From the NCBI RefSeq assembly GCF_019393635.1, contig NC_057863.1, positions 643,347,306 to 643,411,305 on the forward strand: a stretch of DNA of 64,000 nt, given 5' to 3'. Source of the stretch: Dromiciops gliroides (Eukaryota > Chordata > Mammalia > Microbiotheria > Microbiotheriidae). Numbering within the stretch: position 1 is the first letter of the stretch; each line of letters starts with the position of its first letter. A model generated the notes under the pieces. It did not search any database. It was not told the DNA's origin and saw nothing but the letters and a program-made list of their open reading frames with translations. The position numbers and the translations under genes were made by a program. Shown in pieces: positions 15,601 through 16,824 of this stretch.

Positions 15601-16824
15601 CCACCAGCCCGCATCGATTCTGACAAAGGCACACATTTCACTGATTCGATTTTATCCCAAATCTACTCTTTCTTGGGAGTGACTCCAAAATTCCACACGC
15701 CCTACCATCCACAAAGTTCAGGCCAAGTCGAACGTATGAATAAAGAGCTTAAGAGTATGATTGGCAAATTATGTACTGAAACCCATTTGAAATGGCCTGA
15801 TGTTCTACCATTGGCATTATTCTATCTACGAAGTAGACCAAGAGGAGAACTTCATATATCTCCTTATGAAATGCTTTTTGGTCACCCTCCTATCCAAGCT
15901 AAAACTTTTTCCCCAGTTTATACATCACTGGTGGGAGGTGATACTTCTGTTGCTTCCTATATACAGGAATTACAGACCAGGCTACGTGAACTCCATGAGG
16001 CAGGAGCTGTGGTCCAGGCAGGACCATTAGACTTTTCATTGCATAACTTCAACCCAGGAGATAAAATATATGTAAAGAATTTTCAGAGAACCAGTGGAAC
16101 TCAACCTGCCTGGGAAGGACCTTTTCAGGTATTATTGACAACTCCTACCGCCATTAAAATTGGTGAAAAAGACTCATGGATTCATTGCTCTCATATAAAG
16201 CCTGCACCATTCATAGGTGAAGAGATTTCAGATAGACCTGAGGTAGACGCTAAAGAGGTAAAAACCCTAACGATAGCAACTGTTAAAGAGCAAAGAAAGT
16301 TCAGAGGAAACAGGAAGTTCCCATTTAAGAATCCCACTGATCAGTTAAATGCTTTGGGACTCAGTCTTCGTAAAGTATCAGGAGACGGAAATTGCCTTTT
16401 TAGGGCTTTAGCAGACCAGCTAGAAGGTCACTGTAGAAATCATCTCAGACACAGACAAGAAGCTGCTTCTTATATGATTAACCATAGACAAGAGTTTGAG
16501 TCTTTTATAGTAAATGACTCCCCTTTTGAAGAATATGTTGATGAATTAAAGAAATTTGGAAAGTGGGGAGGAAATGATACAATTGTAGCATTTGCTAAGC
16601 AGCATCAGCTGAATGTTGTGGTTCATCAATTAAATCAGCCTTTATTGAAAATCAGTGGCACAGACAAAACTGATGCTACAGAACTCCACATTTTCTACCA
16701 TAAAGAACATTATGACAGCATTAGAAAGATCAATGACAATTCAGAAACCCCTGCCATTTTGGCATGCAGAGAATTGGGGAACCAGTTAAAACAATGTGGC
16801 ATACCCCAAACTCTAGCAGCTTAA
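12646..16824 (+). CDS. pol: Pol polyprotein: protease, RT, RNase H, integrase, fused to an OTU deubiquitinase
   Basis: Open from the codon after the gag UGA to TAA 16822-16824 (1392 codons). There is no ATG near the start, which fits read-through. Motifs in order: protease DTGAS (12802); RT LPQGF (13633) and YVDD (13729-13740); RNase H TDGSS (Asp 14647), AELVALTQ (Glu 14761) and TDSKYG (Asp 14824); integrase HHCC (His 15250 and 15262, Cys 15352 and 15361) and D,D35E (Asp 15448, Asp 15622, Glu 15730); and a GPF-type C-terminal domain with WEGPFQV and HCSHIKPAP (about 16111-16206). All look catalytically complete. A Lys/Arg-rich linker (about 16230-16325) leads into the OTU domain. The host-like domain occupies the place where env would start or overlap in a typical gammaretrovirus. 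Confidence 0.95.
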   Translation, partial: WCLGEEWNIDNESHIFPDPDFLNALVPVHSPPQSNEPHVTLKVGETYYDCLLDTGASKSVLVSKPDAGCRPVGYLNVVGVSGKSQRVAKLNPRMVSMGPLTVEHSFLLMPDAPVNLLGRDLLCKLRATISCAPDGAVSLQLPEDTVHLLPILLTEAQGTAGEVSKIPSDIPESLWASSPNEVGLLKSAMPVTFKVKGGPPPSIPQYPLSREAIEGITPIIEALKSQGIIIPCHHSPCNTPILPVKKPKPGPDGKPVYRFVQDLRAINNYVIPRHSIVANPAMIISSIPYESTCFTVVDLCSAFFSIPVHEDFQYLFAFTWKNRQWTWTRLPQGFVDSPTLFSQILQQDLASITFKASTLVQYVDDLLLASPNAEICQEDSRHLLLELHKRGHKVSKTKVQWCLPQVEYLGFILAAGTRSVSSKRVQAIQQLSAPTTKRQLRAILGAAGYCRQWIPSFGEITKPLIALTKSSVPDILQLDPQHLSAIKELKRALLSAPALGLPDYSKPFTLFVHEQRGVASGVLTQSLGPNQRPIAYYSIQLDPVAAGVPPCLRAVAATALLVEKASDLVLGNPLTVQCPHEVEALLLRHRTQAFSDQRLAKYEITLLGNENITLKRCTVLNPATLLPNLPFSGEPLHDCASLVDMAEKPRDDLFDTPLENPDLVLYTDGSSFMREGTRFTGAAVVSDYDTLWAASLPSHFSAQAAELVALTQACNIAKDKSATIFTDSKYGFGICHFIGMIWRQRGFLTSSGKAIANGDLIKDLLDALKLPSSLAVVHCPAHTGNSDPVSKGNARADSAAKLAALEAPEHVFNLSPSEDIPSNLTYDDSEVEKWKKKFKAKQINGIWVSPEGKPFLPRKFYHQVCLSVHRKGHFGTQGIVDSIKRTWIAPGVTNTASRICSGCSTCQSYNQYAFKAKAYGGRPLAYTPFEHLQIDYITMPKAGHYKFCLVIVDQLTRWVEAFPSPRATAAFVAKILLKEIVPRFGPPARIDSDKGTHFTDSILSQIYSFLGVTPKFHTPYHPQSSGQVERMNKELKSMIGKLCTETHLKWPDVLPLALFYLRSRPRGELHISPYEMLFGHPPIQAKTFSPVYTSLVGGDTSVASYIQELQTRLRELHEAGAVVQAGPLDFSLHNFNPGDKIYVKNFQRTSGTQPAWEGPFQVLLTTPTAIKIGEKDSWIHCSHIKPAPFIGEEISDRPEVDAKEVKTLTIATVKEQRKFRGNRKFPFKNPTDQLNALGLSLRKVSGDGNCLFRALADQLEGHCRNHLRHRQEAASYMINHRQEFESFIVNDSPFEEYVDELKKFGKWGGNDTIVAFAKQHQLNVVVHQLNQPLLKISGTDKTDATELHIFYHKEHYDSIRKINDNSETPAILACRELGNQLKQCGIPQTLAA
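16330..16770 (+). other. OTUD3-like OTU cysteine protease domain at the Pol C-terminus
   Basis: From DQLNALGLSLRKVSGDGNCL the sequence follows cellular OTUD3 very closely: LFRALADQLEGH, NDTIVAFAKQHQLNVVVHQL and EHYDSIRKINDNSE. The catalytic Asp (16384), Cys (16393-16395, in GDGNCLFRAL) and His (16708, in EHYDSI) are all present, so the domain could be active. OTUD3 is a deubiquitinase of the OTU family. The roughly 145-codon stretch is uninterrupted, so it probably came from spliced mRNA. Homology fades after NDNSETPA, and the last ~25 residues are not recognised. Whether protease releases it from Pol is unknown. Confidence 0.93.

Follow-up and report, generated by a model that had tools for sequence, protein, structure and literature searches.

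An OTUD3-type OTU domain at the end of Pol, maintained by purifying selection, in an env-less gammaretrovirus-like endogenous retrovirus family of Dromiciops gliroides

We report an endogenous retrovirus (ERV) whose Pol polyprotein ends in an OTU domain of the OTUD3 type, found in a 64,000-nucleotide stretch of the Dromiciops gliroides genome (assembly GCF_019393635.1, contig NC_057863.1, positions 643,347,306 to 643,411,305 of the forward strand), hereafter the window, to which all coordinates refer. The env-less gammaretrovirus-like provirus occupies positions 10492-19151 and belongs to a family in which purifying selection has maintained the OTU domain within the retroelement. The explanation that we judge best overall, and regard as fairly probable, is that this is an env-less class I ERV family in which an OTU domain captured from OTUD3 has been kept as an active, Pol-linked deubiquitinase that would aid the intracellular particle. 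A prior sequence-only reading of the window had proposed that a pol frame continues without a stop from the integrase into an OTUD3-type domain with its catalytic Asp, Cys and His kept; the frame indeed has no inner stop, and the three residues lie where that reading had placed them:

12646..16824, plus strand: pol frame of 1392 codons, running from protease through integrase to OTU
16342..16761, plus strand: OTUD3-type OTU domain (residues 8-147 of P0001), in frame, after a linker of about 45 residues behind the integrase C-terminal domain
16384..16386, plus strand: catalytic Asp, kept in the alignment to OTUD3
16393..16395, plus strand: catalytic Cys, kept in the same alignment
16708..16710, plus strand: catalytic His, likewise kept

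The domain is closest to OTUD3 in both sequence and fold. It matches the Pfam OTU model at 54.9 bits (cut-off 23.3), and in a search of the PDB with the 167 final codons of the frame, residues 6-147 matched OTUD3 itself (4bou) at 201.4 bits (E 1.1e-58), the runner-up being OTUD5 at 42.9 bits. Other OTU families were rejected as the source on this difference (43 against 201 bits); a better match to such a family with a decayed active site, against which the sequence-only reading had cautioned, was not found. That reading had also described the domain as following OTUD3 almost residue for residue: the assignment to the OTUD3 type, on which PDB match, tree and fold all agree, stands, but the wording was too strong, as 92 of 141 aligned residues are identical to Monodelphis OTUD3 and one residue is missing. 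An AlphaFold2 model of the domain (pLDDT 90.5, pTM 0.86) has 4bou as its top Foldseek match (TM 0.79/0.93, 1.2 A, 62% identity), with viral OTUs (vOTUs) far lower, a fold match that is partly built in because the input alignment of the model consisted mostly of OTUD3. Top identity in three protein searches was at most 67% (one of them covering the best 120 of 333 matches), and no Pol-OTU fusion was found among the matches listed, which is weak as evidence given that annotation often omits ERVs. Likewise, no relative was detected among viral contigs, phages and plasmids, collections poorly suited to a vertebrate ERV, and Rfam returned no match.

Of the 35 columns that are invariant across the other 47 OTUD3 rows, the element retains 33. 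By the hypergeometric distribution, the loss of at most two such columns has a probability of 8e-6, and none of 3001 runs of a neutral simulation reached 33 (mean 23, maximum 31), a null that does not separate constraint before capture from constraint after it. We predict that the domain is likely an active deubiquitinase.

A tree of OTUD3 together with the element copies, of the kind that the sequence-only reading had envisaged, comprises 36 rows, in which 13 sampled element OTUs form one clade (100/100) next to 17 rows of vertebrate OTUD3. A single element clade is most simply read as one capture, and the OTU domain was probably captured once from OTUD3. With the window copy as the sole element, it grouped with the vertebrates (93/76) on a long branch; the donor is, on this sequence evidence, a vertebrate OTUD3, and none of the five donor groups considered (marsupial, therian, mammal, sauropsid and tetrapod) was rejected (p-AU 0.111-0.249). 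Capture from spliced RNA, to which the sequence-only reading had pointed for lack of introns, is plausible.

The OTU-bearing element is a young and abundant family. The 3.30 Gb host genome was searched with the OTU protein, and of 2539 first-look candidates the best 150 were scored, hence picked for likeness: every one of the 150 aligned along the full 167 residues with 99-100% identity and no stop, and 118 share the same 1392-codon open frame (counted by hand). Ten of these copies, whose long terminal repeat (LTR) pairs were cut at window-derived offsets such that some stretches include flank, show no LTR mismatch in seven cases and 1, 3 and 6 mismatches in the remaining three. The insertions are recent. 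The OTU is thus not confined to one copy as a chance or assembly join, against which the sequence-only reading had cautioned, but is carried at every scored place and by older, diverged copies. The near-identity of the scored copies resembles a recent burst, and on its own says little on constraint; it would suit a functionless captured sequence spread as a passenger by copying. We consider such a passenger very improbable, both because invariant columns are retained far above the neutral null and because of the divergence between subfamilies described below.

A further search of the genome with Monodelphis OTUD3, in which 104 of 17647 candidates were scored, yielded matches at 57-70% identity, of which many contain stops and some are young copies; none of these 104 resembles the host OTUD3 gene. 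We analysed 38 loci (8 young, 30 older), in all of which the OTU is present by construction. Integrase lies upstream on the same strand at 36 of them (L013 has none, and L022 just a short match elsewhere), and at 29 of the 38 the integrase match extends to the final residue and shares the OTU frame. The OTU of the window copy was compared with each of the 30 older loci, comparisons that all have one branch in common: the nonsynonymous rate (dN) is 0.17-0.22, the synonymous rate (dS) 0.77-1.05 and dN/dS 0.19-0.25; the integrase gives 0.07-0.33 in 29 loci, the value for L022 coming from 25 codons only. Bootstraps on 7 of the 30 older loci gave 0.20-0.24 for the OTU, with upper limits of 0.32-0.401, and 0.11-0.19 for the integrase. 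Hence, the comparison across insertions that the sequence-only reading had suggested finds the OTU constrained at a depth of dS that speaks against a passenger. Since decay after insertion raises dN/dS, the constraint on the live lineage is stronger than these ratios show; the median OTU dN/dS of 0.50 among the older copies themselves (435 pairs) is likewise expected, as much of their difference accrued after insertion. Preservation of the OTU by evolution suggests that the element uses the domain.

The remaining features of the provirus are as follows:

10488..10491, no strand: left target-site duplication TGGC, within a tRNA-derived short interspersed element (SINE)
10492..11070, plus strand: 5' LTR of 579 nt, TG...CA, with an internal near-identical repeat of 39 nt
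11075..11092, plus strand: probable primer binding site starting TGG, which we take to be of the tRNA-Arg type
11266..12645, plus strand: gag, with the Gag_p30 core domain and one CCHC zinc knuckle (residue 402), ending in TGA and lacking Met-Gly at the start of its open reading frame (ORF)
12643..12645, plus strand: TGA separating gag from the in-frame pol, the inferred readthrough site
12796 (protease LLDTGA), 13633 (reverse transcriptase LPQG) and 13729 (reverse transcriptase YVDD), plus strand: pol motifs, with RNase H also present
15250 (zinc finger), from 15448 (DD35E) and 16117 (GPF), plus strand: integrase motifs
16825..18571, plus strand: non-coding tail in the place expected for env, its part at 17320-18571 common to older OTU-bearing copies
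18560..18571, plus strand: polypurine tract ahead of the 3' LTR
18572..19151, plus strand: 3' LTR of 580 nt, equal to the 5' LTR plus one T
19152..19155, no strand: right target-site duplication TGGC, on the other flank of the provirus

The element is a gammaretrovirus-like (class I) ERV, as the sequence-only reading had described it. Pol carries the Pfam domains RVP, reverse transcriptase (RT), RNase H, integrase core and MLVIN_C, and its RT piece has the RT of Moloney murine leukemia virus (MLV) as its top match at 138.9 bits, against 87.0 bits for the best entry not of MLV type; the matches at or below 87 bits (Protease/Reverse transcriptase, Pr125Pol) are presumably of feline or foamy type. 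Thus, an MLV-type pol (RT, MLVIN_C and the GPY/F motif) is combined with an LTR pair and a 4-bp target duplication. The sole difference between the two LTRs is one T within a T run, and the flanks joined without the provirus reconstitute a SINE, 25 of 33 matching window stretches spanning the junction. An assembly artefact or chance join is ruled out by the TGGC duplication, the empty SINE site, the LTR pair and the 150 scored genome copies, and we discount it altogether.

We posit that the OTU of OTUD3 was acquired at the 3' end of pol, probably once, and was then held by purifying selection. Pol follows the TGA in the gag frame, and the OTU would form the C-terminal end of Gag-Pol upon an inferred readthrough of this stop. 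No ATG occurs in this frame from 15871 to the catalytic Cys, which makes expression via Pol the simplest route. The resulting Gag-Pol-OTU would ride inside the particle alongside reverse transcriptase and integrase, where the OTU would strip ubiquitin off the Gag, Pol or integration complex of the element, and off nearby host factors, which would shield the particle within the cell against the proteasome or against sensing driven by ubiquitin. Met-Gly at the start of Gag serves as a myristoylation signal; none is seen at the start of the gag ORF, which would fit an intracellular element.

The nearest analogue of this architecture comes from the Ginger1 DNA transposons, reported from hydra, Aplysia and aphid, in which a Gypsy/ERV-type integrase is followed at its C-terminus by an OTU (or Ulp1) domain with a suggested role in transposition (PMC2836005). 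The likeness considered here is one of layout, the OTU lying C-terminal to the integrase; Ginger1 has terminal inverted repeats and no RT (PMC2836005), whereas our element has RT and direct LTRs. Fusion to the integrase, together with the same layout in Ginger1, makes action on the element's own complex likelier, in our view, than that of a free immune antagonist, and the OTU quite possibly acts on that complex rather than chiefly on a host sensor.

The alternative of immune damping, which the sequence-only reading had put forward as a possible role next to the removal of ubiquitin from viral proteins, holds that the OTU chiefly targets host RNA or DNA sensing (MAVS, RIG-I, MDA5) or ISG15, as nairovirus vOTUs do, such that the proteins of the element need not be touched. 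It draws on the known existence of viral OTUs with such roles, which have the fold in common with ours, and on cellular OTUD3, whose substrates, according to one review, include MAVS, RIG-I, MDA5 and cGAS, and which cleaves mainly K6 and K63 chains, removing the latter from MAVS, RIG-I and MDA5 (PMC10566363). We rate it as unlikely, though deserving of attention: as a part of Pol that lacks an in-frame ATG shortly before it, the OTU is expected to yield little free enzyme, and its nearest structure is OTUD3 and not a vOTU. The nairovirus vOTU, while also an OTU fold encoded by a virus, is part of the L protein of an RNA virus, differs in origin and shows 14-23% identity among the structure matches listed. 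Furthermore, the same review has OTUD3 stabilising cGAS (PMC10566363), which sits poorly with immune damping.

Several observations weigh against our preferred account of an active, particle-protecting deubiquitinase. The stabilisation of cGAS would also be unhelpful to an element making cytosolic DNA. One residue adjacent to the catalytic His is deleted, two positions that are invariant elsewhere carry substitutions (P61S and T81K), and a catalytic residue is lost in 3 of 34 loci. The open frame alone is weak evidence, as 272 of the 3001 neutral runs were also free of stops, and the shared branch of the 30 comparisons with the older loci limits their independence. The dN/dS of the OTU, at about 0.2, exceeds that of the integrase, at about 0.13, implying weaker constraint on the former, and the RNA downstream of the gag TGA folds like its shuffles (z 0.04). 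The higher dN/dS and the missing residue beside His would both be congenial to an OTU fold retained to bind or stabilise Pol or integrase, for instance as a ubiquitin-binding or nuclear-targeting tail with catalysis secondary. This we hold to be improbable, because Asp, Cys and His are all present in 31 of the 34 loci, older ones included, and the columns around them are among the most conserved.

Known kinds of element include env-less ERVs, transposons that carry an OTU and retroviruses that have captured host genes. The open-licence literature searched gave no description of a retrovirus or ERV with an OTU, and the combination of an env-less ERV with a captured OTU fused to Pol is new as far as we could test. 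With cellular OTUD3 the element shares the OTU fold and the catalytic triad at the identity and structural distance given above, differing in that it has the OTU domain only, fused to retroviral Pol, in its long branch and in the missing residue. With class I ERVs it shares Gag_p30, RVP, MLV-type RT, MLVIN_C, a pol in the gag frame behind a stop and the 4-bp target duplication, and it departs from them in lacking a detected env, in having TGA as that stop, in a Pol that ends in OTU and in a gag ORF start without Met-Gly; an exogenous gammaretrovirus genome differs in the env gene, which was not found in the tail of the element.

The fate of retroviral particles, the stability of integrase and innate sensing are all under the control of ubiquitin, and for this retroviruses as a rule exploit or escape the enzymes of the host. 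Here, a retroelement appears to bring its own enzyme, long kept by selection and found in numerous open copies that are nearly identical. More tentatively, the deubiquitinase might have become a permanent replication module in a vertebrate retroelement, integrase-fused and particle-borne, which would partly explain env-less spread to hundreds or more copies. If so, then taken with Ginger1, deubiquitination next to a retroviral-type integrase would be a recurrent solution. The captured domain and its cellular parent offer a natural comparison, and it can be tested simply which ubiquitin marks limit the retroelement and whether their removal helps.

Behind the OTU, no env domain was detected in the two tail ORFs tried, no tail frame exceeds 134 codons and no motif of the immunosuppressive type occurs in the tail. 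In 8 older copies the sequence behind the OTU matches window positions 17320-18571 wholly or partly, with no long ORF there (the longest has 167 codons in 5 kb that include flanking DNA, in which no domain search was made), and the env-less layout seems from this shared tail to predate the subfamily split. Derivation of the tail from a captured OTUD3 3' untranslated region is unsupported for 17320-18571, which is common to older copies and in part to a separate LTR element of the window. The preceding segment at 16825-17319, about 500 AT-rich bases past the OTU stop, is unmatched in the 8 older copies examined.

The separate element, at 20556-24243 on the minus strand, is short and without recognisable pol; its LTRs (20556-20930 and 23871-24243) are 96.5% identical, and its tail before the 3' LTR is 65-71% like that of the OTU provirus. 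It is perhaps a non-autonomous relative using the enzymes of the latter. A small tail frame is alike as protein between the two elements (18149-18553, and 20971-21237 on the minus strand; score 174), has no Pfam match and is possibly a membrane-protein remnant. More nested copies of the LTR and inner parts of the short element, 76-89% identical, lie at 60237-64000. Elsewhere in the window are an L1 ORF1-like frame at 26004-26969 (Transposase_22, 54.6 bits) and, at 55063-55572 on the minus strand, a weak match to the CATSPERG N-terminal domain (25.1 bits, cut-off 27), perhaps a host-gene exon.
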